Positions 1-13,703 of a DNA stretch of 64,000 bases are shown one piece after another. The DNA is from Ginsengibacter hankyongi. Its GTDB lineage: Bacteria > Bacteroidota > Bacteroidia > Chitinophagales > Chitinophagaceae. The DNA is taken from assembly GCF_008710285.1 (NCBI RefSeq), contig NZ_VYQF01000011.1, positions 62,001 through 126,000 on the forward strand, written 5' to 3'. The notes below the pieces were generated by a model that searched no databases, had not been told where the DNA came from, and saw only the letters and a list, made by a program, of their open reading frames with translations. A program made the translations under genes and the position numbers. How positions within the stretch are numbered: the first letter of the stretch is position 1; each line of letters begins with the position of its first letter.

Positions 1-2
1 AC

Positions 3-848
3 ATTATCAATTTTACAAAGCTGGGATCAACAATTGAAATGGCCATTCGGTTTTTGGATAATGTAATTGAAGTGAACCATTACCTGCTTCCGCAAACGAA
101 AACCATTGTTACAGCAAATAGAAAAATCGGTTTAGGTATAATGGGTTGGGCTGACCTGCTGATCATGCTTGAGCTTCCGTATGATTCCAATGAGGCAATA
201 TCACTCGCTCACCAGGTAATGAAATTCTTCAAAGAAAAAAGCCTTGAAGCTTCCGTTCAACTGGCAAAGGAAAGAGGCGTTTTCAAAAATTGGGAGAAAA
301 GCATTTTCTATCCAAATATTAAACTTCGCCATGCAACAAGATTAAGTATTGCGCCAACAGGAACTATCTCTATTATTGCTGACACTTCTTCGTCTATTGA
401 ACCTTTGTTTGCCGTTGCTTATCGCCGCAGTCATGTGCTTGACGGAAATATTCTTTCAGAAATAAATCCTCTTTTTATTGATTATCTCAAAAAAAATAAA
501 TTGTATTCTGAAGGCTTGATGGACGAAGTAAAAGAAACCGGGTACTTACAACATATCAAACAAATACCAGCCGCAACTAAGAATGTTTTTAAAACAGCTT
601 TGGAGATTTCCCCTGACTGGCATTTGAAGCACCAGGTGGTTTTTCAGCGCTATGTTGATAATGCTGTTTCTAAAACAATCAACCTGGCCGAAACAGCCAG
701 TGTGAGTGATATAAGTGAAATCTATTTGAATGCATGGAAACAAAAGACAAAAGGAATTACCATTTTCCGTTACAATTCAAAAAACAAGCAAGTACTTGAA
801 AAGGGCATCAGCAGCGGCATACAATCCTGCAAGGTTTGTATTAATTAA
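3..848 (+). CDS. nrdJ: Class II (B12-dependent) ribonucleotide reductase, C-terminal part (5' truncated by window edge)
   Basis: This is the C-terminal part of an adenosylcobalamin-type ribonucleotide reductase, which makes dNTPs from ribonucleotides without needing oxygen. The frame is open to the left edge, so the gene starts outside the window; the first in-frame Met at position 39 is internal. Family-typical segments are NRKIGLGIMGWADLL, the substrate-loop region SIAPTGTISIIADTSSSIEP, and NLAETASV before a C-terminal CKVC pair that fits the redox-active or metal-binding Cys tail. The class II assignment comes from sequence style; the radical-site Cys and the B12-binding N-terminus are not in view. 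It converges on the PEBP gene. Its neighbours resemble a hypoxia/stress gene set, for which an oxygen-independent reductase is a natural member. Confidence 0.85.
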   Translation: MINFTKLGSTIEMAIRFLDNVIEVNHYLLPQTKTIVTANRKIGLGIMGWADLLIMLELPYDSNEAISLAHQVMKFFKEKSLEASVQLAKERGVFKNWEKSIFYPNIKLRHATRLSIAPTGTISIIADTSSSIEPLFAVAYRRSHVLDGNILSEINPLFIDYLKKNKLYSEGLMDEVKETGYLQHIKQIPAATKNVFKTALEISPDWHLKHQVVFQRYVDNAVSKTINLAETASVSDISEIYLNAWKQKTKGITIFRYNSKNKQVLEKGISSGIQSCKVCIN

Positions 849-879
849 ATTCAAAAAAATTGTTTTTTTATAATAAAAA

Positions 880-899
880 GGGACTGTATTAGCAGTCCC
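880..899 (-). terminator. Rho-independent terminator for the PEBP gene
   Basis: A perfect 7-bp stem (GGGACTG/CAGTCCC) encloses the 6-nt loop TATTAG. Read on the minus strand the hairpin is followed by TTTTTATTAT, so it fits a terminator for the leftward gene ending at 998. It lies 31 bp after the stop of the rightward reductase gene and may work in both directions, although the plus-strand side lacks a clean T run. Confidence 0.65.
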
Positions 900-997
900 A
901 CGATACAGTAGTTTTAATATCTTTTTGCGAATTTTCAAAGCATCCCCGTGTCAATGACAACGGTCAGCATATCTGATGATAGACAGCATTATTTAAA

Positions 998-1495
998 CTA
1001 TCGCCTTTTATATAAACCAATCAGTTCGCCGAATCCAAGAATATGATCGCTCATAGCTTTTTCCAATTCTATCTTTTTTGTTGTAGCAGGCAAACGCAAC
1101 AATGCATCCAGGGCATAAATTTTAAAAAAGTATCGATGGGTACCAGATGGCGGGCAGGGGCCGTTGTAATGATTTTTCTGAAAATCATTAATTCCTTCTA
1201 TACCCTTTATATCATTTTCTTTTATGTGGTGAGTTACGGGAATATTCCATACCACCCAATGAACCCATGTGCCAATCGGGGCATCGGGATCATCAACAAT
1301 CAAAGCAAGGCTTTTTGTTGCTTCCGGAATAACTTCAATTTCAAGCGAAGGGCTGATATTATCACCATCACAAGTATATTTTAAAGGAATATATTCATTG
1401 TTATTAAAAGCGGAACTGGTGATTTTTAGCTCCGGGTTAGTAACTTCAACAGATGGAATGGCGAATTCCTTGTCTGGTTGTTTTTTCTTTTGCAT
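998..1495 (-). CDS. YbhB/YbcL family Raf kinase inhibitor-like protein (PEBP fold)
   Basis: A 165-residue phosphatidylethanolamine-binding-protein-like protein. It shows the family anion-pocket segments: YTCDGDNISPSLE near residue 40, LALIVDDPDAPIGTWVHWVVWNIP around residues 63-86, and GPCPPSGTHRYFFKIYALD around residues 112-130. The pocket Asp-Pro, His and GxHRY residues are intact. The biochemical role of bacterial YbhB proteins is poorly defined; they are described as small-ligand or kinase-modulating proteins. No signal peptide is visible, so it is probably cytoplasmic. It is divergent from the PRPP synthetase gene; the shared 315-bp gap holds two copies of a dyad motif, one for each gene. 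Family call is firm, function is not. Confidence 0.9.
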   Translation of the reverse strand: MQKKKQPDKEFAIPSVEVTNPELKITSSAFNNNEYIPLKYTCDGDNISPSLEIEVIPEATKSLALIVDDPDAPIGTWVHWVVWNIPVTHHIKENDIKGIEGINDFQKNHYNGPCPPSGTHRYFFKIYALDALLRLPATTKKIELEKAMSDHILGFGELIGLYKRR

Positions 1496-1572
1496 AATGA
1501 ACGTTTACTGCACTAAAAACATAAAGTTTAAAAAGAATCGCAAAAATTAAAGCGCCGTTTTTAAATATCCCC

Positions 1573-1617
1573 CAAAGCAAATACATTAATTGTTTGGCGT
1601 CAATGAGTATCGTCAGC
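1573..1617 (-). promoter_or_regulatory. Candidate activator-type promoter of the PEBP gene
   Basis: An imperfect dyad AATGAGTATCGTCAGC occupies 1602-1617. On the minus strand a -7-like box TTGCTTTG (seven of eight matches to TAnnTTTG) occupies 1573-1580. The two centres are 33 bp apart, the same spacing seen at the nitroreductase and PRPP synthetase promoters. This places the dyad about 41 bp upstream of the predicted start of transcription, the class II position used by CRP/FNR-family activators. Regulator identity is inferred; no such regulator is encoded in the window. Confidence 0.5.
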
Positions 1618-1743
1618 GGTTCTATTGATTATGATCATTATAAAATCGTATTCAGCCAATAGAATGTTTTAAGGTTGATAAGCACAATTTATATTTCCCG
1701 AAGGCAAAACTGCTGTTGTTTTCTGATTACAATCAATGCAATC

Positions 1744-1788
1744 AATAATTATCGTCATAAATAAAGAATCCGGATATTAGTTCCTTTG
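1744..1788 (+). promoter_or_regulatory. Candidate activator-type promoter of the PRPP synthetase gene
   Basis: A weaker dyad AATAATTATCGTCATA (1744-1759) lies 33 bp, centre to centre, from a -7-like box TTCCTTTG (1781-1788, seven of eight matches). Predicted transcription would begin near 1792, about 19 nt before the ATG at 1811. The right half-site and the TATC spacer match the dyad at 1602-1617. No TTG is seen at the expected -33 position, which fits activator dependence. Confidence 0.45.
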
Positions 1789-1810
1789 AATACTAATAGG
1801 GATCTTTTAA

Positions 1811-2782
1811 ATGAAATTATTTGCATTAAACAAAACGCGAAGCTTTGGCGAATTGGTCGCCAAAGAGCTAAACTTATCATTAAGCTTATATGAAGAAAGG
1901 GAATTTGAAGATGGCGAGCATAAAGCCCGGCCACTTGAAAATGTACGTAACCAGGATGTGTTTGTAATTCATTCTCTTTATAGTGATGGAGACCAAAGTG
2001 TAAATGATAAACTGTGCCGCCTCCTTTTTTTTATCAGCGCTCTTAAAGATGCATCAGCAAAAAAGGTTACGGCAATAATCCCTTACTTATGTTATGCACG
2101 CAAAGACCGGAAAACAAAATCACGCGATCCTGTGAACACCCGCTATGTAGCCCGTTTACTCGAAGCTTCGGGAGCTGACAATATAGTTACAATGGATGTA
2201 CATAATCTGCAGGCTTTTCAAAATTCATTTAGAATACCAACGGAAAACCTCGAAGCAAGAAAACTATTTGGCGTTTACTTGTTACCGTTAGTTAAAGACG
2301 ATTCCCCCGTAATTATGTCGCCCGATTTCGGAGGTATTAAGAGAGCAGAACAGTTTCAACGTACGCTGACTAAACAATTAAATAAAGAATTACCGGTTAT
2401 ATTTATGGAAAAATACCGAAGCAGCGGTGTGGTATCCGGCCAAAGAATTACAGGAGACGTTAAAGATAAAGCCGTCATCATAATTGATGATTTAATAAGC
2501 ACTGGTGGTACTATTGCTAGAGCTGCTGACTCCTGTAAAAAATTGGGCGCAAAAAAAGTATTGGCGCTGGCAACACATGGCCTTTTTACAGGCACACCTG
2601 ATGAAACATTGCAAAAGAGCCCACTCGATCAAATATTAGTTACCAATACAATTCCGCCTTTCAGATTGGACAATACCAGGACAAAAGAAAAAGTGACTGT
2701 TTTAAATGCAGCGCCGCTTTTTGCAGAAACTATAAAGCGTATGGAGGAAGGAGGATCGGTTACGGAGTTATTCGATGATTAA
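1811..2782 (+). CDS. prs: Ribose-phosphate pyrophosphokinase (PRPP synthetase)
   Basis: 323 residues, the normal length for the family. It makes 5-phosphoribosyl-1-diphosphate from ribose 5-phosphate and ATP. The ATP/metal region reads CYARKDRKTKSRDP (residues about 95-108) and the PRPP-binding loop reads VIIIDDLISTGGTI (about 223-236); the catalytic Lys and Arg appear as EKYRSSG near residue 200. The usual DLHxxQIQGFF signature is altered here to DVHNLQAFQNSF, so this is a divergent, possibly accessory copy rather than the housekeeping enzyme. The next gene starts 14 bp downstream. A phosphoribosyltransferase that could use PRPP lies in the same cluster. Confidence 0.9.
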   Translation: MKLFALNKTRSFGELVAKELNLSLSLYEEREFEDGEHKARPLENVRNQDVFVIHSLYSDGDQSVNDKLCRLLFFISALKDASAKKVTAIIPYLCYARKDRKTKSRDPVNTRYVARLLEASGADNIVTMDVHNLQAFQNSFRIPTENLEARKLFGVYLLPLVKDDSPVIMSPDFGGIKRAEQFQRTLTKQLNKELPVIFMEKYRSSGVVSGQRITGDVKDKAVIIIDDLISTGGTIARAADSCKKLGAKKVLALATHGLFTGTPDETLQKSPLDQILVTNTIPPFRLDNTRTKEKVTVLNAAPLFAETIKRMEEGGSVTELFDD

Positions 2783-2796
2783 AGAAATTATCGTTG

Positions 2797-3843
2797 ATGC
2801 CAAAAAATAACCATATCGAATCAGTTGTAGAACATAAAGTGCCATTAACTGAAAAGGTTTCTTTTTTAATGCAGCCACAATCTTATCCGCACCCCGTTAC
2901 CAAAGTAGAAGCAAAAGAAACTCATATGTCATGGGTTTTTTTGGTGAATGGCTTTGCATATAAACTTAAAAAACCTGTTACAAATAGTCTGTTTGATTTT
3001 AGAACGCTGGAAGCCAGGTTGAAAAACGGTATAGAAGAGGTACGTGTAAATAAAAGATTAGCTGATGATATATATCTTGGAATAGTGCCGCTTGTTATTA
3101 ATGAAGTTGGAAAACTGCAAATAGAGGGAAAGGGAAAAATTGTTGACTGGCTGGTAAAGATGAAACGCATCTCCGAAAAAAATTTCCTTCATCTGGCAAT
3201 AAAATCTCAAAAGCCGGATAAGGCTTTAGTTGAAGAAGCGGCCAAAGTATTGACTGAATTTTATAAGAATGCTTCACCTGTAAAAATAGAGCCGGTACTG
3301 CACAGGAAAAAATTGAAAGAGGACATAACTTCTACTCACGCAGAATTGATAAAAGAGATTTATCATTTTTCGGTTGCATTAGTTGAGCAAATTAGTAGTA
3401 CGCTGCTTCACTTTCTAGACAATCATTTCTTGCTTTTTGATAAACGAATTGAGGATGGAAAAATCATTGAAGCGCATGGAGACCTGAAACCAGAACATAT
3501 TTGTCTTTCACCCCAATCTGCTTTCATCGATGCATTGGAATTCAATACAGAATTAAGAATAATGGATATAGCAGAGGAATTATCTTTCCTTGATATGGAA
3601 TGTGAAATGATGGGCGACCTTGTTACGGGTCAAATCTTTTTTAATCATTATAGAAAATTAAGTGCTGATGATATCCCTGAATCCCTGATCTTTTTTTATA
3701 AATCAAAGAAAGCTTTTCTTCGTACTTATCTGGTTGCACGACATATAACAGAACCCAGCTATAAAGATGATCCAAAATGGATGATCAGGGCTAACGCTTA
3801 TTTACAATTGGCTAAAAAATACGCTTATAAATTAATTCCTTAG
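2797..3843 (+). CDS. Aminoglycoside phosphotransferase-like (COG2187-type) kinase-fold protein
   Basis: A 348-residue protein with the protein-kinase-like APH fold. The Brenner motif AHGDLKPEHICL (about residue 227) and the following FIDALEFN, in the place of the metal-binding DFG-type Asp, indicate phosphotransfer capacity. An upstream TTG is possible at 2794, but the ATG at 2797 is preferred. The protein resembles the N-terminal half of two-domain proteins such as M. tuberculosis Rv2004c (COG2187 plus an AAA kinase); the second domain is absent here. It follows the PRPP synthetase by 14 bp, so they are probably co-transcribed. Its 3' end is only 4 bp from the convergent phosphoribosyltransferase gene. 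Substrate unknown. Confidence 0.75.
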   Translation: MPKNNHIESVVEHKVPLTEKVSFLMQPQSYPHPVTKVEAKETHMSWVFLVNGFAYKLKKPVTNSLFDFRTLEARLKNGIEEVRVNKRLADDIYLGIVPLVINEVGKLQIEGKGKIVDWLVKMKRISEKNFLHLAIKSQKPDKALVEEAAKVLTEFYKNASPVKIEPVLHRKKLKEDITSTHAELIKEIYHFSVALVEQISSTLLHFLDNHFLLFDKRIEDGKIIEAHGDLKPEHICLSPQSAFIDALEFNTELRIMDIAEELSFLDMECEMMGDLVTGQIFFNHYRKLSADDIPESLIFFYKSKKAFLRTYLVARHITEPSYKDDPKWMIRANAYLQLAKKYAYKLIP

Positions 3844-3847
3844 TAAT

Positions 3848-4495
3848 TCAGCTTTTCAAAACACCTTTTTCTTTTTCCCAACGCTCCATAAATCCCAATG
3901 CATCATCATCACTAAGATTATAAAAGCTTTGGTAGGCTTGCGATACGGCGAAGAAATCACCGGGCTTTTCCAATATAATAACTTCATCTGCTTTTTCACC
4001 CAGCATTTCTTCCATGTCATACCCCGAAACCGGTGCTGCAATAACAATCTTGCCGGCTTTTCTTTTCTTACACATTTCTATCGCAGCAAAAATGGTAGCG
4101 CCTGTTGCTATCCCATCATCTGCCAGGATAACGGTCCTGTCTTTTAAATCAGGTAATGGTTTTCCTTTGCGTAAAATTTTTATCCTCCGCTCAATTTCTT
4201 TTTTCTGTAGATCTATTATTTCATTTATCGTTTCTTTTGAAAATTCTTCATTTGCAAACGGGCTTAAATAAACACTTCCGTCTTCTGCAATGGCGCCAAG
4301 AGCATATTCCGGATTTGAAGGATGGCCCAGTTTACGTGAAATTAAAAGAGAAAATTCAGCATGTAAATGAAGCGCTATATAATAAGCGGTTTCAGCGCCA
4401 CCTCTCGGAATACCCAATACGATTACGTTTTTATCCTTGTATTTTTCAAGGGCCTTTGCCAATTTCAGGGCAGCATCTTTTCTATCTGTAAACAT
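3848..4495 (-). CDS. Phosphoribosyltransferase family protein
   Basis: 215 residues with a type I phosphoribosyltransferase fold. The PRPP-binding motif is VILADDGIATGATI (about residues 121-134), and the N-terminal IPRGGAETA loop (about 29-37) forms the pyrophosphate loop. The ISRKLGHPSNPEYALGAI segment is typical of the stress-associated subgroup of uncertain substrate that includes M. tuberculosis Rv0571c. It is the last gene of a leftward unit baeRF-CapA-PRTase with gaps of 29 and 38 bp. It likely uses PRPP; the acceptor base cannot be read from the sequence. Confidence 0.85.
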   Translation of the reverse strand: MFTDRKDAALKLAKALEKYKDKNVIVLGIPRGGAETAYYIALHLHAEFSLLISRKLGHPSNPEYALGAIAEDGSVYLSPFANEEFSKETINEIIDLQKKEIERRIKILRKGKPLPDLKDRTVILADDGIATGATIFAAIEMCKKRKAGKIVIAAPVSGYDMEEMLGEKADEVIILEKPGDFFAVSQAYQSFYNLSDDDALGFMERWEKEKGVLKS

Positions 4496-4533
4496 GGCTT
4501 ATTTTTTAAATTTTATAATAGTTATGTTTTCAT

Positions 4534-5502
4534 TCATGTCAATAGTACTTGTCCCCTGTCACTAACCTTTGTTCCGAATTTTTCTGACAAATATTGCATA
4601 CGTTTTATACTCCATTTATATTCATTGCCAACTGCTAAGTTCACCTGGTAACGGGAAATCAAAACGGGGAAGAGTTCCAATTTTGTCAGGCCCTTTTCAC
4701 CGGCATCAATACGAAAGAAAAAGGAATGGTCATTTTTTAATACAGGATCAACCATATAATCATCTACAAAATCTCCTGTGTCGTAGAGTATCAATTTATG
4801 ATGGTATACCTCTATGCCCTGGAAATTATGGGCACTATGGCCATGAATAATTTCAGCACCTTGTTCAATCATTTGGTGTGCAAAATCTATAAAATACTTT
4901 TGGGGAAATTCCTGCATATTCGGTCCCCAATGAATACTGACTACAACAATATCTGCTTCTTTTTTTAGCTGCTCTATGTTGAGTAATGCCCTTTTGCGAT
5001 CATCTTCACTGGATACATTAATATAATTTATTCCGCTGCTGGAAGCACCGGCTTTCCAGGTGGGTTCGTTATCTGTAAACCCTAATATCCCTGTTATAAT
5101 ATTGTTCCTGGTTATAATAACATGTTTGGAAGCTTCTTTATCATTGATACCTGCTCCTACATATTTTATTCCGGCGTTCTTTAATGTTTGAATCGTTTCT
5201 ATTAATCCCTGTTCCGAGAAATCTAATATGTGATTGTTAGCAAGATTAGCAACCGTTACATTCGCATCTGTAAGACATTTAATTTTATCAGGTGTAGCTT
5301 TAAAGTTGAAGGTTTTTTCAACAATTTTATTGCTATTGGTTAAAGTTGTTTCCAGGTTCACAATGTTCAAATCTGTACTGTGAAGTAAGGGCAGCACATT
5401 TCCCCATACATACCGGTAACCTTCCTGGGAGATAACAGTATCAACTTCTCTTCCAATCATAACATCACCCGTTAAACCAATAACTAATTTATCATAATTC
5501 AT
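4534..5502 (-). CDS. CapA family metallophosphoesterase-fold protein (PGA_cap)
   Basis: 322 residues spanning the poly-gamma-glutamate capsule-synthesis (CapA) domain, a calcineurin-like metallophosphatase fold. Metal-site motifs visible in order are GLTGDVMIGR (residue about 9), NLETTLTN (about 50), NLANNHILDF (about 85), SIHWGPN (about 195) and HGHSAHNFQGI (about 219). There is no N-terminal membrane anchor or signal peptide, unlike capsule-operon CapA, so it is probably a cytoplasmic phosphoesterase of unknown substrate. It lies between the baeRF and phosphoribosyltransferase genes in one leftward unit. A CapA-like gene (Rv0574c) sits near a phosphoribosyltransferase in the M. tuberculosis DosR regulon as well. 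Confidence 0.8.
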   Translation of the reverse strand: MNYDKLVIGLTGDVMIGREVDTVISQEGYRYVWGNVLPLLHSTDLNIVNLETTLTNSNKIVEKTFNFKATPDKIKCLTDANVTVANLANNHILDFSEQGLIETIQTLKNAGIKYVGAGINDKEASKHVIITRNNIITGILGFTDNEPTWKAGASSSGINYINVSSEDDRKRALLNIEQLKKEADIVVVSIHWGPNMQEFPQKYFIDFAHQMIEQGAEIIHGHSAHNFQGIEVYHHKLILYDTGDFVDDYMVDPVLKNDHSFFFRIDAGEKGLTKLELFPVLISRYQVNLAVGNEYKWSIKRMQYLSEKFGTKVSDRGQVLLT

Positions 5503-5531
5503 ATTTCAATTACAGATTTTATCCTTTCAAC

Positions 5532-6662
5532 CTAATATCTCGTAATTAATGCGATGTGCTGGTAGTCTTTAAGCATACCGTTATCTGTAAAAAATACCTG
5601 TCCATTTTTTTCCAACATCATTTCAATAATATCATCTACAGCATCTGCTAAAATTCTATGTGCATTTTGCGGTGGGCGAATGAAAAGCCGGTAGGCATCC
5701 TTTACTAAAAATCCGGGTTGGCGAAAATCTTTCTCTACCAAAAGCTTTAACCCTCTTCCTTCCTGTACTGCCTTCCAAACTTCCTCTACACCATGTATGC
5801 CGTGATGTTCACCAATCTTTTCGATAAACTGTTTTATTAATTCGACTGTTTCATTATCAAGGTGGGAGCGCATCACCGGCCATACAATCGTAGCAAGGTC
5901 AATCGGATGCGTATAATTTAAACTCCGGTCAATTTTACTAATGATGTTTTTTTTGTGTGCCAGTAAATCGTCGAATAATGCCAGCTCTTTTTCGGTACCC
6001 AGCAATATTAGCGGAATGTCGTTTAACAGGTAATCATTTAAAGCTTCATTTACCCCGCGGAAAAAATCCCGGAACCTGATATCTTTCAGTGCAGATTTTT
6101 CCTTTTCAACATTTCTCACATGCGCATATCCTGCAGCAGGTGTGCCGCGGCTGGGTGGATTGTAAATGTATTCCTCTTTATATTCTTTCGGAAAATTGTT
6201 GTCATTGATCTCATTCAGGATGTTCCACGTGCCTTCGAAAAGTTTTATTTCTTTTTCGGTAAGCAGTAAAACAAAATACGGCTTCGAGTAATTCATTTTA
6301 TAAACCAGGTCACGCAATTCAAAATTGTCGCCCACCATTACTTTCTCCTCAACTGGAAAAGGAAATTGTACTAAAAGTTTGATATTGGGTGACACATATA
6401 ATCCTAATCCCTCGGGGTTATGATTAAAATCAATGCTCTTATATAATTCATCCAATGACTTTAACAATGGCTTTATTTCTGATTCTTCGTATTTGAATTG
6501 AAGAAATTGCCGGGCGTTTTCCAGCGCTTTATCCACTTCAGGTTTATCGGCCCTTCGTTCCGGAGACAACTTGTGCGTGGGAACAATAACTGAAACGCAA
6601 ATTTGCCCTTTTTCCTTTTGCATTTTCAGCAAATCTTCTTTCAATAATTTTTCACTTTCCAT
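5532..6662 (-). CDS. eRF1-like bacterial release-factor family protein (baeRF)
   Basis: A 376-residue protein that resembles the bacterial archaeo-eukaryotic release factor (baeRF) group, related to M. tuberculosis Rv2629. Support comes from the N-terminal region ICVSVIVPTHKLSPERRADK, the central LLLTEKEIKLFEG segment, and the C-terminal eRF1 domain 3-like stretch ILADAVDDIIEMMLEKNGQ followed by VFFTDNGML. These proteins are predicted to act on stalled or hibernating ribosomes, but biochemical proof is limited. It is first in the leftward unit with the CapA and phosphoribosyltransferase genes. A weak copy of the cluster dyad may lie upstream (6715-6730). Family call moderate, function inferred. 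Confidence 0.65.
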   Translation of the reverse strand: MESEKLLKEDLLKMQKEKGQICVSVIVPTHKLSPERRADKPEVDKALENARQFLQFKYEESEIKPLLKSLDELYKSIDFNHNPEGLGLYVSPNIKLLVQFPFPVEEKVMVGDNFELRDLVYKMNYSKPYFVLLLTEKEIKLFEGTWNILNEINDNNFPKEYKEEYIYNPPSRGTPAAGYAHVRNVEKEKSALKDIRFRDFFRGVNEALNDYLLNDIPLILLGTEKELALFDDLLAHKKNIISKIDRSLNYTHPIDLATIVWPVMRSHLDNETVELIKQFIEKIGEHHGIHGVEEVWKAVQEGRGLKLLVEKDFRQPGFLVKDAYRLFIRPPQNAHRILADAVDDIIEMMLEKNGQVFFTDNGMLKDYQHIALITRY

Positions 6663-6841
6663 AAAATAGCTTTGTGATGAGTGTTGAAAAATAGGTTTAT
6701 AAGTTTCCCGTACAAATGATGGCTCTCAAATATTGGTATGATTGTTATCACATCTCTTAAAAAATAATTATTCTAAAATTTCTTATTTAAAATTTACGTC
6801 ATGGTATACTGCGTTTATCCGTACCGGTTATATAAGTATTT

Positions 6842-7474
6842 TCATGCCGCATCGATAAAAAATGCATTCTTCTTAATCCTTTTATGAACTTCAGGTGTCT
6901 CATCTCCATATCCCAGGATTATGGCAAGTTTTATCTCTTCTTTTGGTGAAGTTTTTAACTGGGAGTATAGTTTGGTATGCTGCAAATATTTTCCAAATCC
7001 GACAGGGCAGGTATCCAGTCCCATGGATTTTGCTGCGAGCATAATGTTTTGTGCGCACATGCCAATGTCGAGATCAACCCACTCATTATTCCTGGGGCCG
7101 GTAATAAAAATTACAACCGGGGCTTCGTAAAACACATGGTCTTTAGTTTTTAAATAATGAAAACCACTTGAAAAATTAAGCAAGTGAATTATATTCTTTA
7201 CAATTCGTGTCGGACCAGCCTTTAAAAACTCTTTAGCTGTTATTTTTGAGATTGCCTTTGAAAACGATTGGATAGTTTCTTTATTAGTCACTACATAAAA
7301 TTTCCACGGTTGTTCATTCATCGCAGAAGGCGCCATACGTCCGGCATCCAGTATTTTTTCAATAATGGTTTTGTCAACATTTTTATTCTTGTATTTTCTT
7401 ACAGACCTTCTTCCATAAATCGATTGAAGGGTTTCAATTGTTTCCGTTACTTCGTTAATTACTGAGGTTGCCAT
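6842..7474 (-). CDS. Nitroreductase family protein
   Basis: 210 residues, an FMN-dependent NAD(P)H nitroreductase-fold protein. The FMN-binding RRSVRKYKNKNVD (about residues 22-34), APSAMNEQPWKFYVV (about 48-62) and the C-terminal LGYGDETPE segment are canonical. It probably reduces nitro compounds or quinones in the cytoplasm, or sequesters FMN as proposed for the mycobacterial Acg group; this cannot be decided here. Its own promoter carries the best copy of the cluster dyad (7562-7577). It lies 179 bp upstream of the baeRF gene on the same strand and may be a separate unit. Confidence 0.9.
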   Translation of the reverse strand: MATSVINEVTETIETLQSIYGRRSVRKYKNKNVDKTIIEKILDAGRMAPSAMNEQPWKFYVVTNKETIQSFSKAISKITAKEFLKAGPTRIVKNIIHLLNFSSGFHYLKTKDHVFYEAPVVIFITGPRNNEWVDLDIGMCAQNIMLAAKSMGLDTCPVGFGKYLQHTKLYSQLKTSPKEEIKLAIILGYGDETPEVHKRIKKNAFFIDAA

Positions 7475-7532: not shown

Positions 7533-7577
7533 CAAAATTAATTTTACAAATTCTCAGTATTAATGACCTACGTCATT
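7533..7577 (-). promoter_or_regulatory. Nitroreductase promoter with a perfect 16-bp dyad
   Basis: The outer six bases of AATGACCTACGTCATT (7562-7577) form a perfect inverted repeat, with five core bases each side of a 4-bp spacer, the FNR-box geometry. A perfect TAnnTTTG box (TAATTTTG on the minus strand, 7533-7540) lies 33 bp away, centre to centre. No -33 TTG is visible. The dyad would be centred about 41 bp upstream of transcription, as for class II activation. The 55-nt leader then reaches the ATG at 7474. Confidence 0.6.
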
Positions 7578-7995: not shown

Positions 7996-9924
7996 TCATT
8001 CATCTGTTCTGAAAGGTGCTGCCGGTAAACCTTCCTTATTAATTAAATTTGGATTAATGGGTTCGTCTGCCCAGGCATAGCGCACATATTTTGGCGACGG
8101 GACATCATCACTCCAAACAATCACTTTATCACCTTCAATTTTTGCATTTGCCCAAACGAATTTTTTGTCATCGCCCGCTATAGCAAACTCAGCAGGCGCT
8201 TCACCATCATTCGTGGTTAATCCGCTACCTGTTTCGTTGAATGAAATAATTATTTTGTTGCCGTCGATGGTTGAAGTTTTATATATCGGCCCCGCATAAA
8301 CGATATTTTCCCCGTACGCGATTTTTTCTGCCGCCAATGCAAGTCGGTCACCTACTTCTTTCTTATGATCCGGGTGTATGTCATTCCATTCACCCACATC
8401 AATAGCCACTGCCATTGCGGTGTTTGACACGGATAATGATTTTGCCTGGGCTTCTCTGAATGTGGCCCATTGACTCTCAGAAGGCAAATAATTGTAATCA
8501 CCAAAGCCGGGAAGTTGAACGAACAAAAAGGGAATATCACCTTCTTTCCATTTGTTGCGCCAGTCGGTAATCATTGCGGGCTGCCGTTTCGCATAATCGC
8601 CTGGCTTTCCTGTGTTGCTCTCACCCTGGTACCACACAAAACCTTTGATAGTATAACCGACCAAAGGAGCAATCATTGAATTATACAAGGCTGTTGGTTG
8701 GTTTTGTGCTGCAATGCCAAAGCTGCCAAAACCACGTCGTGGGAAGTTCACACGTCCCGCTTTATATTCCCAATAACCAGTGAGATCGATCGTATCATTG
8801 CCTGCAATTAATTGATATGGTTTATCCGGAACAAAGCCGCCTTTGCCAAAGTTATTGGTAACCCGAACTACAAAAAGATTTTTACCAGGTTTTAAAACAC
8901 CACCAGGAACCGGATAGCGCCGTTGCGGGTACATGTAACCGGTAGTCCCAACTTTTTTCCCGTTAATATATAATTCATCGGCATCTACAATGCGACCAAG
9001 AAATACTTTTGCAGGCACGTTAGTCATAGACGCAGGCACATCAATTTCCCTTCGATACCATACTACGCCATTCAGATTTTTTGCGCCCTGGTCTTCCCAA
9101 AAGCCCGGTATGGCAATGCGATGCCACTCTTTGGGTGTGTATGAAGGTTCAAACCATTTTTCAGTCATGCCCTTATCTTCGGGATGTGGCATCGAACTCA
9201 TAGCAGCAAACGCTTTACGATTGGCTCCGTTAACGTAAGCAGTGTCTTTATTTTTTTCAATTGTACTAAGTATTGAAGGAAGATCTTTGAAGCTTTCTTC
9301 GCTCATCATGGATTCAATGGGAACGCCGCCCCAGCTTGCATTAATGATGCCGATGGGCACATGATATTTTTGATACAAAGCTTTAGCAAAAAAGTACGCC
9401 ACGGCTGAAAATTCTTTTATATCATTTGGGTTCGCCCATTTCCATGAGCCGCCCGGCAAATCTTTCTGGGGACCTTGCAGGTTGGTTACATTAGGAACCC
9501 AGAACTGTCTTATTTCAGGATTGTTAGCATTTGCAATTTCATCAGCATAACGTATACCATGTAATATCATTTGATGTACCATGTTTGACTGGCCTGTACA
9601 CAACCACACGTCGCCCACTAATATGTTATGTAAAGTGATTTTGTTTTTGCCCGATATCTCCATCGTATAAGGTCCGCCGGCTTTCATAGATGATAATTGT
9701 AGCGACCACCTTCCATTATCATCTGTTCTTGTTTTATACTTTTTACCATTAAACTTCACGCTTATCTTTTCGCCGTTTGAAGCCCATCCCCACAAGTTTA
9801 TTTTTGCGTCCCGCTGGAGTATCATGCTGTCTCTTATAAGTTGTGGTAGTTTTACCTGTGCACTTGCATAATGTGTTGCAATCAGACAAACACCAACCGT
9901 AAAAATTTTCCTGATAAACCTCAT
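7996..9924 (-). CDS. Secreted sialate O-acetylesterase-type (SASA/SGNH) carbohydrate acetylesterase
   Basis: A protein of about 642 residues with a signal peptide (MRFIRKIFTVGVCLIATHYASAQ). The SGNH nucleophile motif is CTGQSNM (about residue 108), the block III-like GESNTGKPGDYAKRQP lies near 430, and the Asp/His block is NDIHPDHKKEVGDRL near 515. A jelly-roll insertion (about 255-370) splits the esterase domain, an arrangement known in xylan/xyloglucan acetylesterases of the CE20 type. I chose the start at 9924 rather than 9951 because it begins the signal peptide and avoids overlap with the upstream gene. Last gene of the GH115-GH10 operon. In this context it most likely removes acetyl groups from xylan; sialate is improbable. 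Confidence 0.85.
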   Translation of the reverse strand: MRFIRKIFTVGVCLIATHYASAQVKLPQLIRDSMILQRDAKINLWGWASNGEKISVKFNGKKYKTRTDDNGRWSLQLSSMKAGGPYTMEISGKNKITLHNILVGDVWLCTGQSNMVHQMILHGIRYADEIANANNPEIRQFWVPNVTNLQGPQKDLPGGSWKWANPNDIKEFSAVAYFFAKALYQKYHVPIGIINASWGGVPIESMMSEESFKDLPSILSTIEKNKDTAYVNGANRKAFAAMSSMPHPEDKGMTEKWFEPSYTPKEWHRIAIPGFWEDQGAKNLNGVVWYRREIDVPASMTNVPAKVFLGRIVDADELYINGKKVGTTGYMYPQRRYPVPGGVLKPGKNLFVVRVTNNFGKGGFVPDKPYQLIAGNDTIDLTGYWEYKAGRVNFPRRGFGSFGIAAQNQPTALYNSMIAPLVGYTIKGFVWYQGESNTGKPGDYAKRQPAMITDWRNKWKEGDIPFLFVQLPGFGDYNYLPSESQWATFREAQAKSLSVSNTAMAVAIDVGEWNDIHPDHKKEVGDRLALAAEKIAYGENIVYAGPIYKTSTIDGNKIIISFNETGSGLTTNDGEAPAEFAIAGDDKKFVWANAKIEGDKVIVWSDDVPSPKYVRYAWADEPINPNLINKEGLPAAPFRTDE

Positions 9925-9931
9925 GGTAATC

Positions 9932-11017
9932 TTATTTAATCTTTTTAGCAAATTCAGTTGAACCGTAACGGGCTAACTCAAACCCTGAAACATTTCCATT
10001 ATTATCTTTTATAAAATGAATTTTAAAGAATGAGGATGTGAGATAGAAATCAATTTCAGATGCGGCAAATAATCGGGACCAATTGTTGCCCACATAAACT
10101 GTAAGCGCATTATTTTCTGATTTCATTTCTATCATCATTCCATCGTTCAATTTATAAGTACCGTTATATTGTTGAAGAATGTTAGCTGACAATTGTAATG
10201 AAGGCCGCTTGAATACAAATTGCAAACCTCTTGCATATCCTTCGCCTTTTGTTCCTGAATGACCCGTGTTTTCTAAAATTTTACTTTCTATTTGCAGGTT
10301 TGCATAATGACGGCTTTTTAAAAATGATGTCAGCTTTTTAAAACCCGGAACACTTAATTCTGCACCACCCACACACATAAATAACTTTGCAGGAGAATTG
10401 GATTTATTTGAGTAATAATTTTTTTCATACGGATACAATATCGAATTGCTCCATGTATATGCAGGACTTGCGGCTATATAACGGTTAAACATATCCGAAT
10501 GTGTGAAGAGCGTGTAAATGGTAAACAAGCCTCCAAGGGAACAACCGACTAACGTTTTATCATTTGCATCAACACGATAATTGCTTTCAATGAAAGGAAA
10601 GATTTCATTTTTTATAACTGAAAGAAATTTATCAGCACCGCCACTTTGTGGCAATCGCTTTTCGTTGGTGGGTGTATAATCTCTTGCTCTTAAGCTGTCA
10701 GGATTTGAATGATCGCCGCCCCAGGTAATACCAACAATAATAACTTCCGGAACAAAGCCATCATAATATTGCTGACCGTATAAAGCGGTTAACAAGGGAA
10801 AATCCCATTGCGAATCCATTAAATAAACAACAGGATATTTTTTATTGCTGTTGGCATAACCTGACGGTAATGAAATCTGCAAGACATATTCTTGTCCGTT
10901 TACGATTTTCGAAATAAATGTTTTTGCTTGTGAACCAGGAATTGTTACTTCAGTTGATTGGGCAAACGTTAGAGATGCAAACAAGATGGTGAATGATATC
11001 AGTAAGTATTTTTTCAT
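9932..11017 (-). CDS. Secreted esterase of the putative-esterase (PF00756, CE1-like) family
   Basis: 361 residues with a signal peptide (MKKYLLISFTILFASLTFAQ). The alpha/beta-hydrolase nucleophile elbow is GCSLGGLF (Ser about 159), and a catalytic His is likely in LENTGHSGT (about 248-256). The family includes feruloyl/acetyl esterases (CE1) and siderophore esterases (IroE/Fes). Its place in a xylan operon makes a feruloyl or acetyl-xylan esterase most likely. The C-terminal 90 residues (QYNGTYKLNDGMMIEM onward) form an added beta-rich domain. The next gene begins 7 bp downstream. A strong 33-nt hairpin lies 17 nt before the ATG. Confidence 0.8.
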   Translation of the reverse strand: MKKYLLISFTILFASLTFAQSTEVTIPGSQAKTFISKIVNGQEYVLQISLPSGYANSNKKYPVVYLMDSQWDFPLLTALYGQQYYDGFVPEVIIVGITWGGDHSNPDSLRARDYTPTNEKRLPQSGGADKFLSVIKNEIFPFIESNYRVDANDKTLVGCSLGGLFTIYTLFTHSDMFNRYIAASPAYTWSNSILYPYEKNYYSNKSNSPAKLFMCVGGAELSVPGFKKLTSFLKSRHYANLQIESKILENTGHSGTKGEGYARGLQFVFKRPSLQLSANILQQYNGTYKLNDGMMIEMKSENNALTVYVGNNWSRLFAASEIDFYLTSSFFKIHFIKDNNGNVSGFELARYGSTEFAKKIK

Positions 11018-11033
11018 GTTATTGTATGTTGTT

Positions 11034-11066
11034 AGACCTAACAGGTTTCAAAAACCTGTCAGGTCT
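11034..11066. repeat. Palindromic repeat, copy A (intra-operon hairpin)
   Basis: Two 15-base arms (AGACCTAACAGGTTT and AAACCTGTCAGGTCT) with a single G-T wobble enclose the 3-nt loop CAA. It lies between the GH43 and esterase genes of the operon, 17 nt before the esterase ATG. A near-identical palindrome occurs at 12149-12181. The CCTAACAGGTT/AACCTGT core suggests a REP-like dispersed element. It could slow transcription, protect mRNA ends, or mask the esterase ribosome-binding region. Confidence 0.75.
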
Positions 11067-11077
11067 TCTGCGGGTAA

Positions 11078-12130
11078 TTATAGCAACACTTCTAAATCAT
11101 TATAAGGATTAATTGTTTTGATCAAACCATTTTCATCATAATCAATTTTATCAACCTTAATACTTCGTAAATGTGTTACTCCTTTGCTTAAGCTGCTATC
11201 ATGATAAAATAAGTACCAATCGCCGTTAAATTCAACAATTGAATGATGGGAAGTCCAGCCAATAACAGGATTTAAAATTCTTCCAGCATACGAGAACGGT
11301 CCGTAAGGATTATCAGCAATGGCGTAACAGATGAAATGTGTGTCACCTGTTGAATAAGAAAAATAATATTTGTTATTGTATTTATGCATCCAGGATGCTT
11401 CAAAAAATCTTCTATCGTTATCGCCTTGCAATAATGCTTTTCCATTTTCATCTGTTATCACAACATCTTTCGGCGCTTCAATAAACTGTAATAAATCACT
11501 TGTGAGCTTCGCAATTTTTGCACATAAAGCTGGTTTATCATCATTGGGTAAATGTGCCGTTGGACTTTCTGGCTGCGATGCATTAAATGTTCCAGTTTGC
11601 CAGCGTTGTAATTGTCCGCCCCAAATACCTCCGAAGTACATGTAATAACTCCCATCCTCATCTTTAAACACGGCAGGATCAATTGAAAAACTTTCTTTGA
11701 TGGCTTCAGGTTCCGCTTTAAACGGACCGGTTGGTGAGTCGCTTATTGCAACACCAATTCTAAAAATTCCATCATGATCTTTTGCAGGGAAGAATAAATA
11801 GTATGTACCATTTTTCTCATTTGCATCGGGTGCCCACATTTGTTTTTCAGCCCAGGGTACATCGCTTACGTGTAAGGCTATACCGTTATCTTTTGCGTCA
11901 CTGATTGGTGAATCCATTGAGATAACATGGTAGTCTTCCATTGCAAAGTGGCTGCCGAGATCATCAAATGCTTCGCCTGCATCCACATCATGCGAAGGAT
12001 AGATATAAATTTTCCCATTAAACACATGTGCCGAAGGATCTGCTGTAAAAATATTTGTTATTAGCGCTTGCGAAATCGCTTTTTTATTCAGTTCATCAAA
12101 GTTGATGTGTTGTATGTCGTCTTCGGGCAT
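11078..12130 (-). CDS. Cytoplasmic glycoside hydrolase family 43 protein (beta-xylosidase/arabinofuranosidase)
   Basis: 350 residues, no signal peptide, so it acts in the cytoplasm. The five-bladed propeller motifs are visible: catalytic base region NIFTADPSAHVF (Asp31), WAPDANEKNGTYYLFFPAKD, the pKa-modulating Asp in SIDPAVFKDEDGSYYMYFG, and the acid Glu probably in RRFFEASWMHKYNNKYYFSY. Sequence style fits subfamily GH43_1, which hydrolyses xylo-oligosaccharides or arabinose side groups. It lies just downstream of the MFS symporter gene, so it likely completes the breakdown of imported oligosaccharides to xylose for XylA. The gap to the symporter contains a palindromic repeat. Confidence 0.85.
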   Translation of the reverse strand: MPEDDIQHINFDELNKKAISQALITNIFTADPSAHVFNGKIYIYPSHDVDAGEAFDDLGSHFAMEDYHVISMDSPISDAKDNGIALHVSDVPWAEKQMWAPDANEKNGTYYLFFPAKDHDGIFRIGVAISDSPTGPFKAEPEAIKESFSIDPAVFKDEDGSYYMYFGGIWGGQLQRWQTGTFNASQPESPTAHLPNDDKPALCAKIAKLTSDLLQFIEAPKDVVITDENGKALLQGDNDRRFFEASWMHKYNNKYYFSYSTGDTHFICYAIADNPYGPFSYAGRILNPVIGWTSHHSIVEFNGDWYLFYHDSSLSKGVTHLRSIKVDKIDYDENGLIKTINPYNDLEVLL

Positions 12131-12148
12131 ATTTGAAGTTTTGTGGAT

Positions 12149-12181
12149 AAACCTAACAGGTTCCGAAAACCTGTTAAGTTT
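12149..12181. repeat. Palindromic repeat, copy B (intra-operon hairpin)
   Basis: Arms AAACCTAACAGGTT (12149-12162) and AACCTGTTAAGTTT (12168-12181) pair with one wobble around a 5-nt loop. It is the same family as the palindrome at 11034-11066 and has the same position relative to a gene: 18 nt before the GH43 ATG, after the end of the symporter gene. Confidence 0.75.
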
Positions 12182-12189
12182 AATTGCTG

Positions 12190-13686
12190 TTATCTACGTC
12201 TTTTTTGTTTTAAATCGCTTTCAATTTGTACTTCCATTTTTTTATTGATAGAATAGAAAAACAATAAACCTGCGCCGATCAAAAACGGGATTGCCGGGTA
12301 AACGCTAACGAGCATTTTTGTTCCCTGTATTGCTTCGGGCGATTGTACATTGCTGTTGGGAACATAGTTGTATAAACCGAGAATCCATGTGAGTACAGCG
12401 CCTCCAAGGCTGAGCCCAACTTTTAAACCAACCATCATCGCAGAAAAAATAATGGCTGTTGCACGGCGGTTGTTTTTCCATTCACTGTAATCTGCAACAT
12501 CCGCGATCATTGCCCATAACAATGGGATGGTTAAGCCATAAAAAAAGCCATGCAAAATTTGCGATGCAAACATTAACCCAACCGAGGTTGACGGAAATAG
12601 AATGAACGCTAAGATGAACAGTGTTGAAATAAATAAGCAGGTGCCGAACACATCTCTTTTACCATATTTGTCTGCAAATTTTTTTGACAGGGTGATGCCA
12701 ATGATCATAAAAATAATTCCACCTGCATTAAATAAGCCAAAGCCTGCTGATACCGGATCTTCGCCAAAAACATTGAGACAAATATTGGAAAGGAAATGAA
12801 CGATGGGACTTACAAATTTAGTAAGGCTTGCACGATCAACATAATTGTTGAAGTAATAAACATAAGAGCCACCCTTCATTGAAAGGGTGATGAACACAAG
12901 TGTTGTAAGCACCAACATAATGATCCATGGTTTGTTTTTAAACAAATCAGCTAAGTCTTCTTTTACACTTGATTTTTGTTCGGGCTTTGGAACAATGCGT
13001 TCTTTCGTTGTTAAAAAAGTGATGAGCAACATAACGGTTCCGATGATGGCAAGCCATGTCATTACTTTTTCAATCCCTTGCGATTTATCGCCGTGACCAG
13101 CAGATTCAATTATTGCCAACATGAATACCTGTACAAAAAATTGCGCAAACATCACGGCAACAAAACGATAAGAGGATAAGCTGTTACGCTCGCCCATGTC
13201 GCCGGTAATAACGCCACTTAGCGCAGAATAAGGAAGGTTATTTGCAGCATAGAAAAATAACAACAACGTGTATGTAATAACAGCATAAATAACTTTGCCC
13301 TGGTAAGAGAAATGTGGCGTGCTGAATGCGAGTAATGCAATAACACCGAGAGGAATAGCGGTAAATAAAATCCATGGCCTGAACTTTCCCCACCTGGAAT
13401 AAGTTCTGTCAGCTAATGCTCCGATGATTGGATTAAAACCAAAGCCGGCAATTAGACCCACCGTTAGTATTAATATCGAAGCGTGTTCCGGTTTAAGACC
13501 ATAAATATCGGTATAGAAATAAGCAAGGTAGGTTACTAATGTTTGAAACACGAGGTTTGCTGCAAGGTCGCCAAGACTGTACCCAACCTTTTCAAGCACA
13601 GATAATTTATGAGGCGCCACCGCGAGTTTACTTGCATTCGCTGCGCCTGTTTTTTCTTCGGGTAATGATAATTCTTCGGTGCTCAT
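12190..13686 (-). CDS. MFS (GPH family) sugar:cation symporter
   Basis: About 498 residues starting at MSTEELSLPEEK (13686). A longer open frame to 13824 overlaps the xylanase gene and lacks family similarity, so I reject it. About 12 hydrophobic segments are visible. The GPH-type signature region GYSLGDLAANLVFQTLVTYL lies in helix 1, GFGFNPIIGALADRTYSRWGKFRPW in the loop 2-3 region, and MIADVADYSEWKNNRRATAI in the second half. This is the glycoside-pentoside-hexuronide family to which xyloside transporters belong. In the inner membrane it would bring xylo-oligosaccharides or xylose released in the periplasm to the cytoplasmic GH43 and XylA. It begins 17 bp after the xylanase stop codon. Confidence 0.85.
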   Translation of the reverse strand: MSTEELSLPEEKTGAANASKLAVAPHKLSVLEKVGYSLGDLAANLVFQTLVTYLAYFYTDIYGLKPEHASILILTVGLIAGFGFNPIIGALADRTYSRWGKFRPWILFTAIPLGVIALLAFSTPHFSYQGKVIYAVITYTLLLFFYAANNLPYSALSGVITGDMGERNSLSSYRFVAVMFAQFFVQVFMLAIIESAGHGDKSQGIEKVMTWLAIIGTVMLLITFLTTKERIVPKPEQKSSVKEDLADLFKNKPWIIMLVLTTLVFITLSMKGGSYVYYFNNYVDRASLTKFVSPIVHFLSNICLNVFGEDPVSAGFGLFNAGGIIFMIIGITLSKKFADKYGKRDVFGTCLFISTLFILAFILFPSTSVGLMFASQILHGFFYGLTIPLLWAMIADVADYSEWKNNRRATAIIFSAMMVGLKVGLSLGGAVLTWILGLYNYVPNSNVQSPEAIQGTKMLVSVYPAIPFLIGAGLLFFYSINKKMEVQIESDLKQKRRR

Positions 13687-13703
13687 ATAAATTGCTTTGG
13701 TTT

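Follow-up and report, generated by a model that had tools for sequence, protein, structure and literature searches.

We analysed a window of 64,000 nucleotides of the Ginsengibacter hankyongi genome (contig NZ_VYQF01000011.1, positions 62,001 to 126,000) and identified, at its left end, the right-hand half of a stress and survival island of about 20 kb. In window coordinates, where negative positions lie to the left of the window, the island runs from -12,964 to 7,474; its upstream part was read from contig C3 of the same genome, and the window opens inside a ribonucleotide reductase (RNR) gene. Genes were called in our scripts as mechanical open reading frames with overlaps removed greedily and were named by Pfam, except for two COG2187-type kinases, named by homology, and a protein of 142 amino acids, p142, without a Pfam match. 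From left to right, the island begins with an inositol-phosphatase-family (CysQ-like) gene, an AAA kinase (PF13671), the first COG2187 kinase and a methyltransferase, followed by a leftward run of p142, an AMP-binding acyl-CoA synthetase, E1 alpha, a flavodoxin, a zinc ribbon protein, E1 beta and E2. Then come polX (-2644..-905), whose end is overlapped by the gene for a class II (B12-dependent) RNR, NrdJ/NrdZ (592 amino acids as a whole, from -930; C-terminal part at 1..848, forward strand), a PEBP / YbhB-YbcL family protein (998..1495, reverse; PF01161, TIGR00481), the phosphoribosyl pyrophosphate (PRPP) synthetase Prs (1811..2782, forward; TIGR01251), of the subfamily that is paired with COG2187 kinases in Proteobacteria, and, 11 bp 3' of Prs and in the same direction, the second COG2187-type, aminoglycoside-phosphotransferase-like kinase (2794..3843, forward). 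The right-hand end holds a leftward run headed by a baeRF family 3 protein, baeRF3 (5532..6662, reverse; PF18845, NF052287), with a CapA-like (PGA_cap) protein (4534..5502, reverse; PF09587) and a phosphoribosyltransferase (PRT; 3848..4495, reverse; PF00156), and finally a nitroreductase-family protein (6842..7474, reverse; PF00881).

The first-pass annotation had named eight genes of the window and placed them in one cluster. All eight were located where it put them, their families hold, and they do belong to one unit; that unit, however, does not start at position 3 but extends left to -12,964, taking in PolX, the acyl-CoA synthetase, a 2-oxoacid dehydrogenase set (E1 alpha, E1 beta and E2), flavodoxin, the methyltransferase, a COG2187 and an AAA kinase and the CysQ-like gene. 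On either side the island is flanked by genes that, judged by eye, resemble those for polysaccharide use.

Reading of the intergenic gaps revealed perfect palindromes, ATGAC-N4-GTCAT, at both island edges. Across 122 kb we counted 15 copies of the general form, TGAYNNNNRTCA, four in coding and 11 in intergenic sequence. All 11 intergenic copies fall within the 2,840 intergenic bp of the island (-13,300 to 7,800) and none in the other 11,263 intergenic bp, an enrichment with a binomial value of 2e-8 that is overstated because motif and limits were picked on the same sequence; that choice does not affect the tests in relatives described below. Of the 11 intergenic sites, ten lie 5' of a gene. 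To the left of the window they stand 68 bp from the CysQ-like gene, 73 and 95 bp from the methyltransferase, 91 bp from p142 and 69 bp from PolX-RNR. Within it, sites occur 131 bp 5' of the PEBP start, between PEBP and Prs (1626..1637), 75 bp 5' of the Prs start (1724..1735), 77 bp 5' of baeRF3 and thus of the baeRF3-CapA-PRT run (6739..6750), and 90 bp 5' of the nitroreductase, inside the perfect palindrome ATGAC-CTAC-GTCAT (7564..7575). The tenth stands 87 bp 5' of a flanking outer-membrane-like gene. The site at 955..966, between the convergent ends of NrdJ and PEBP, is in a non-promoter position. The occurrence of this palindrome 5' of most transcription units of the island is new here, and it points to a common switch of dormancy type, probably one for low oxygen. 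An Fnr-type promoter motif common to the units likewise predicts joint control. Co-regulation of the island by a Crp/Fnr-type protein, as read from the sequence, appears well supported.

The box recurs in relatives. We sought baeRF3 in 198 genomes of the same class (29 matched) and 195 of the same family (41 matched), own genome included, and read 40 baeRF neighbourhoods, 39 in relatives plus that of the paralogue in the own genome. These contain 148 sites in 85,147 intergenic bp as against 50 in 601,155 coding bp, and six control patterns gave four to 12 intergenic matches each in the same neighbourhoods. Pairs of sites spaced at exactly 22 bp number 25, and the next commonest spacing was seen twice. 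When 107 gene-site pairs (nine from the own island) were aligned on the gene-proximal site, a second full TGA-N6-TCA lay 22 bp upstream in 37, with 11 or fewer at any other offset. Of the 25 occurrences of TAnnTTTG, which we take to be the consensus of the Bacteroidota -7 box, 15 begin at +35 and five at +57 (35 + 22). With transcription starts placed from the -7 box alone, these offsets would put the near site at about -42, the position typical of class II Crp/Fnr activation, and its distant partner at about -64; a palindrome with a TGA-N6-TCA core near -41 of promoters would thus be present, as in a class II Crp/Fnr activated regulon. A strict tandem pattern was found at least 358 times in 120 of the 195 family genomes and at least 289 times in 99 of the 198 class genomes, and its reversed control, counted by eye, four times and once, respectively. 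Genome-wide in G. hankyongi, ATGAYNNNNRTCA occurs at least 154 times per strand, compared with 72 and 56 for the reversed pattern.

The island genes also recur together, rearranged, in other genera. A 35 kb stretch of one genome of another genus (G357, C172:41.9-76.8 kb) holds 13 of the 20 island genes in a different order, namely baeRF3, methyltransferase, acyl-CoA synthetase, E1 alpha, E1 beta, E2, RNR, CapA, PRT, COG2187, Prs, CysQ-like and PolX, and also matches PPDK, ROK, BON, Usp and PNPOx. Six of the eight genes originally named (RNR, Prs, COG2187, PRT, CapA and baeRF3) lie there within about 22 kb, and five (RNR, PEBP, Prs, COG2187 and CapA) within about 8 kb in a second genome (G229). 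In all, nine island genes stand on a 12 kb contig of the latter and six within about 9 kb in a third (G335), with both COG2187 forms and a partial PolX counted. The close COG2187 form occurs in four of the 195 family genomes, and the number rises to seven when the other form is included (E<=1e-30); all seven COG2187 genomes are baeRF-positive (hypergeometric 1e-5) and all seven hold the receiver-Crp gene discussed below. The proposal that these families keep company beyond one genome is therefore borne out: the search for conserved neighbourhoods found recurrence above chance, rearranged in other genera, with few of the genes in most of the 40 baeRF neighbourhoods. On the suggestion that the module is transferable bear its patchy distribution, with the close COG2187 form in four of 195 genomes, and its place on plasmids in rhizobia.

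In Proteobacteria, the Prs-COG2187 pair is present on rhizobial plasmids. In the best 10 of 93 plasmid records with COG2187, a Prs that is 44-53% identical always lies no more than 4.1 kb from the kinase gene (comparison by eye). Usp, Hsp20, GroEL and glucokinase are common to the two rhizobial stretches that we read, and PEP synthase, CBS, PfkB, PRT and a bifunctional APH/ATP-binding protein are found in one or other of them. Their 'host attachment protein' genes (L270:3336-3782; L271:3109-3567), a few kb from Prs-COG2187, belong to baeRF family 12 (131 and 121 bits), and a different baeRF family is thus present there too; release-factor-like proteins of two families occur in Prs-COG2187 islands of two phyla. 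The Rhodococcus opacus plasmid pR1CP1 (L332; typed mobilizable) has a PRT-hydrolase gene followed by Prs, together with Hsp20, CBS, GAF and PNPOx genes. A Haloarcula pelagica plasmid (L331) encodes a CapA 40% identical to that of the window near two Hsp20 genes, with no other named family among the listed genes of the stretch. A Rubrobacter plasmid RNR and a Halorussus PRT were considered as island sites, and no such island surrounds either.

The product of baeRF3 is a homologue of the Balon family of ribosome hibernation factors. It matches Balon in the Psychrobacter structure 8RD8 (PMC10901736; 8rd8 chain B) over its full length (phmmer E 2.5e-20, residues 9-376) and scores 255 bits against the Balon model NF052287, under the curated cut-off of 330, and 29 bits against the MSMEG_1130 model NF052288. 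Neither a GGQ nor an NIKS string was seen by eye in the baeRF3 translation, and their absence is a Balon trait in the available part of the published description (PMC10901736). The stress-operon setting likewise resembles that given for Balon in the same partial source; what differs is the context, a Crp/Fnr-type box 5' of many Bacteroidota homologues. Such a box lies within 230 bp upstream of the match start in 25 of 41 baeRF homologues, compared with 0, 1, 1 and 0 for four control patterns. PF18859 (acVLRF1) was also tried as a baeRF family and has no match in the own genome.

We identified five matches to the Crp-type helix-turn-helix (HTH) in the G. hankyongi genome, one of them interrupted by a stop. 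The latter, at C1:605942-606115 and near a box at 605930, is possibly a broken regulator. Two Crp-type proteins share an E-x-x-I-R recognition helix. One is a receiver-cNMP_binding-HTH_Crp_2 fusion of 352 amino acids (C1:810176-811234) that adjoins a PAS-PAS-HisKA-HATPase kinase (pair at C1:810176-812849), and the other is a DNR-like Crp/Fnr protein (C28:235584-236177) beside NosZ-like and ScdA/RIC-like genes (named by eye). Residues D9, D52 and K104 of the receiver and E317, I320 and R321 of the helix are invariant in all 19 fusion sequences. The fusion was found in 138 of the 195 family genomes and 97 of the 198 class genomes (E up to 1e-60), with at most 10 first-look candidates scored per genome, and in 57 of the 121 genera sampled in the class, about half. 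Tandem sites follow the gene: of the family genomes, 109 of the 138 that have the fusion carry them, as do 11 of the 57 that lack it, and the corresponding counts are 71/97 and 28/101 for the class set and 59/73 and 7/28 when each genus is represented by one genome.

The boxes also cluster around the fusion gene. Their density near it is 1.28 per intergenic kb, versus 0.12 elsewhere in those genomes (14 genomes, 20 regions of either kind, the comparison regions picked at round coordinates on large contigs and not by a random generator). The fusion-gene regions hold Usp (7), Hsp20 (6), a baeRF homologue (5), CcoNO (4), PNPOx (3), P-type ATPase (3), PfkB (2) and HemN (2), all of which are at zero in the comparison regions; the latter held histidine-kinase-like matches in 3/20, E1 beta in 1/20 and an esterase in 1/20. 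A contig search with the receiver-Crp alignment gave, among the 80 loci listed, 11 that match nearly the whole regulator (L190-L200) and a Leptolyngbya locus (L201) in which regulator residues 1-273 are matched at 34%. In named records, box density is 1.16 per intergenic kb near the fusion and 0.08 near other response regulators (11 loci each, the controls being 11 other loci with titles taken as Bacteroidota). In the family set, at least 12 of the 50 baeRF places have a listed fusion gene no farther than 14 kb away, and these linkage counts are lower bounds. The receiver-Crp fusion is the best regulator candidate, and it is likely to be the regulator of the island.

Boxes are also numerous in two further stretches of the genome, C1:149-197 kb and C1:785-832 kb, among genes for Usp, HPF, PPDK, a glycogen-phosphorylase-like protein, P-type ATPases, a second baeRF, Hsp20, PfkB and CcoNO; several of these families are in the DosR regulon of Mycobacterium tuberculosis yet missing from the window island. 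A HemN-like radical SAM protein is also encoded in the other box-bearing regions. At C1:591047-591170, next to a NiFe hydrogenase cluster, there are three boxes, of which two form a tandem pair spaced at 22 bp; the cluster is likely to be a further target.

The signal was approached through the kinase. The best Protein Data Bank matches of its first PAS domain include the heme PAS domains of FixL and DosP, and the very best is a multi-sensor kinase, 10jx. At the column that we take to hold the FixL heme histidine, a histidine is found in 37 of 40 rows, or 35 of 39 after correction (the duplicate of the own kinase dropped and a row aligned outside the PAS domain not counted). By eye, the kinases of Arcticibacter (L196) and Sphingobacterium corticibacter (L200) seem to have ordinary PAS domains of the FixL kind. 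These data favour oxygen sensing, the histidine alone being no proof of heme binding, and make oxygen a plausible signal.

Given these analyses, we consider it probable that the island is part of a genome-wide, co-activated dormancy regulon that runs from a FixL-like PAS kinase through the receiver-Crp protein to class II activation. A PAS histidine kinase with a FixL-like domain would sense falling oxygen (or redox state or NO) and phosphorylate the fusion, one or two dimers of which, near -42 and -64, would switch the island on by class II Crp/Fnr activation. The products might then keep the cell idle yet recoverable. The Balon-family factor would block and protect ribosomes, and the B12-dependent reductase would supply dNTPs without oxygen, which class II RNRs do not need, while PolX might repair DNA. 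Judging from family names, we speculate that Prs, PRT and the COG2187 kinase maintain the pool of PRPP and nucleotides, that carbon and redox metabolism falls to the 2-oxoacid dehydrogenase, acyl-CoA synthetase and nitroreductase, and that CapA protects the envelope. The circuit would resemble DosS-DosR, and also a FixL-FixJ-FixK system in which FixJ and FixK were a single protein. The broader proposal is more tentative, and we find it very nearly balanced between acceptance and doubt: that a hitherto undescribed oxygen-dormancy regulon operates in much of the Bacteroidia, with a FixL-like kinase driving a single receiver-Crp protein that would switch on, through 22-bp tandem TGAYNNNNRTCA boxes, Balon-type hibernation, cbb3 oxidase, Usp/Hsp20 and mobile survival islands.

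Several observations weigh against these proposals. The regulator gene is not adjacent to the window island, and the 331-bp gap of the unit formed by the AAA kinase and first COG2187 kinase has no TGAYNNNNRTCA and not even a TGA-N6-TCA. No box is present at 16 of the 41 baeRF homologues, and of the 40 baeRF neighbourhoods the majority contain few of the island's genes and some contain several. A strict tandem site is missing from 29 of the 138 fusion genomes and present in 11 of the 57 others; some of the fusion absences may be misses because so few candidates were scored per genome, and the Fisher values overstate the associations because the genomes are related. The link to baeRF in the class set is weak (fusion in 20/29 versus 77/169, P 0.026), and tandem-site counts there are not significantly higher in baeRF genomes (P 0.26). 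Tandem sites also track the DNR-like protein, occurring in 49 of 51 genomes with both proteins, 60 of 87 with the fusion only, four of 10 with DNR only and seven of 47 with neither. As for the kinase, the arginine motif of FixL, which we take to be GIGR, is missing from nearly all PAS rows, the literal GIGR occurring only in Arcticibacter and GLGR in Sphingobacterium, and the PAS histidine is also found in PAS domains not known to bind heme.

The lack of the arginine motif from most of the kinase PAS domains would also fit a general stationary-phase or energy-stress regulon, in which the kinase senses redox or energy and hypoxia is one trigger among others. We regard this as unlikely, though less so than any other alternative: the other box-bearing regions hold classic low-oxygen genes (CcoNO, the HemN-like radical SAM protein and NiFe hydrogenase), and the same families stand under Fnr/FixK-type boxes in rhizobia.

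Alternatively, the DNR-type protein might be the main binder of the palindromes, and the island would then answer to NO or denitrification in place of a receiver-Crp two-component system. Its recognition helix likewise has the E-x-x-I-R pattern, there is a site in its own neighbourhood (C28:235497), and genomes with it are richer in tandem sites even when the fusion is present (49/51 versus 60/87; rank test on counts, P 0.002). Without the fusion, its effect is weak (4/10 versus 7/47, P 0.049), whereas without the DNR-like protein the receiver-Crp effect is still strong (60/87 versus 7/47, P 8e-10). It is found in 61 of the 195 family genomes, as against 138 with receiver-Crp and 120 with tandem sites, and the sites cluster near receiver-Crp genes. 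The DNR-like protein adds to the site association but does not explain it, and we judge its role as main binder quite improbable.

The remaining alternatives have little in their favour. Six or more families overlap with the DosR blocks in the part of the mycobacterial literature available to us (PMC5309233), as a DosR-type regulon moved from Actinobacteria to Bacteroidota together with its regulator would predict; such a transfer is nevertheless highly improbable, given no DosR-type box within one mismatch in 122 kb, a candidate output of the Crp and not the LuxR type, and a baeRF3 closer to the Balon than to the MSMEG_1130 model. Least credible of all is a chance gathering of unrelated stress genes beside polysaccharide-use genes, which the unconserved gene order and the few island genes in most of the 40 baeRF neighbourhoods might suggest, but against which stand the presence of 13 of the 20 genes within a single 35 kb region from another genus, the confinement of the motif to the island and the seven of seven COG2187 genomes that are baeRF-positive. 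The first two of these and the box and gene clustering around the fusion genes refute it in substance. The survival island is real and recurrent, and its co-control is well supported.

Some features of the island and its surroundings stand apart from the question of control. The COG2187 kinase at 2794-3843 has no match in Pfam and NCBIfam scans; it is 27% identical over 338 amino acids (E 6e-33) to the phosphotransferase half of a 'bifunctional aminoglycoside phosphotransferase/ATP-binding protein', and the other island copy is 29% identical over 322 amino acids to the same half, with the AAA kinase as a separate gene. COG2187 is presumably the correct number for these kinases. The Prs-linked copy has the motif HGDLKPEH, and the other copy (L001:6633-7643) has HGDLHSRN, which we take to be the usual phosphotransferase motif; the Prs-linked copy may be an altered or inactive kinase. 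The p142 family (142-165 amino acids; L001:14667-15095, G000:C1:164067-164564), which heads the dehydrogenase run here, was found again in several baeRF neighbourhoods; the 142-residue copy was scanned against Pfam and gave no match. Directly after the island, window positions 7996-14840 hold polysaccharide-like genes by eye (sialate-esterase-like, esterase-like, glycoside-hydrolase-like and sugar-transporter-like), with no TGAYNNNNRTCA box in their intergenic gaps.

If the proposed regulon holds, the Bacteroidota would possess a counterpart, with a different, simpler switch, to a dormancy programme described chiefly in mycobacteria and in certain Proteobacteria, and Balon-type ribosome hibernation would gain a concrete regulatory circuit. 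Function predictions for the COG2187 kinases, the Prs paralogue and the p142 family would become testable through one box, and a recurring 'dormancy' gene set recruited by unrelated regulators would be suggested.

The first-pass annotation had read the cluster as a mirror of the mycobacterial DosR gene set. The genes it cited (Rv0570, Rv0571c, Rv0574c, Rv2004c, Rv2629 and Rv2032) are DosR genes in the accessible part of the published account (PMC5309233). Class II RNR, PRT, CapA, COG2187 kinase, baeRF and nitroreductase are common to both, Usp, Hsp20 and PfkB occur elsewhere in this genome, and both would be under two-component control. Some of the family assignments behind the parallel stand with qualifications, the baeRF protein being nearer to Balon than to MSMEG_1130, and the nitroreductase, a genuine PF00881 member, reaching only 38 bits against the Acg model NF047509 (cut-off 199). 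Unlike in DosR, there is no DosR-type box (core GGGACTNNAGTCCC, taken as the consensus) with up to one mismatch in 122 kb, and the candidate regulator and sensor have other domains, the predicted output being cNMP_binding plus HTH_Crp_2 in place of the LuxR/NarL type. On the Rhodococcus plasmid, a looser DosR core (GGGACNNNNGTCCC, one mismatch) has five matches, one of them 96 bp 5' of the PRT-hydrolase gene; 200 single-base shuffles gave 2.8 matches on average and up to 8, so that the count is not above chance. The DosR parallel therefore extends to gene content; the box differs, and the regulator probably does too. The data do not support a specific mirroring of DosR, the likely regulator being receiver-Crp and the content equally like that of lxa and of the rhizobial plasmid islands; the island resembles the tuberculosis dormancy programme while apparently using a different regulator.

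Among other systems, the Myxococcus NmpR regulon is, in the available portion of its description, another oxygen-linked regulon with Usp and an unrelated box (PMC11841059). In titles and abstract openings of the open-access literature, we found no description of a Bacteroidota regulon with a tandem box and a receiver-Crp regulator. The lxa locus of Burkholderia cenocepacia is a 50-gene stress island with six Usp, Hsp20/alpha-crystallin and phosphofructokinase, implicated in anoxic persistence, and the accessible part of the report already likens it to DosR and ties it to a fixK homologue (PMC6127331); the parallel drawn in the first-pass annotation is thus not new in kind. Our island is likewise a cluster of stress genes, but lxa is proteobacterial, and no class II RNR, Balon-type factor or receiver-Crp protein is named for it in that part of the source (PMC6127331).

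The rhizobial islands, like ours, have Prs next to a COG2187 kinase, and with it they carry Usp, Hsp20, GroEL, glucokinase, a baeRF12 gene and Fnr/FixK-type (anaerobox) sites. The two stretches have eight and nine TTGAYNNNNRTCAA boxes, of which 8/8 in Sinorhizobium and 6/9 in Ensifer lie outside listed genes, and the remaining three Ensifer boxes touch two listed hypothetical genes (the gene table being incomplete). Unlike ours, their box keeps an outer T-A pair, and no CapA or RNR is among the listed genes of the two stretches; rhizobia presumably also have separate FixJ and FixK proteins. The closest known analogues are the FixK-linked low-oxygen islands of Burkholderia (lxa) and rhizobia, which would be closer to the present island in type of control than DosR.

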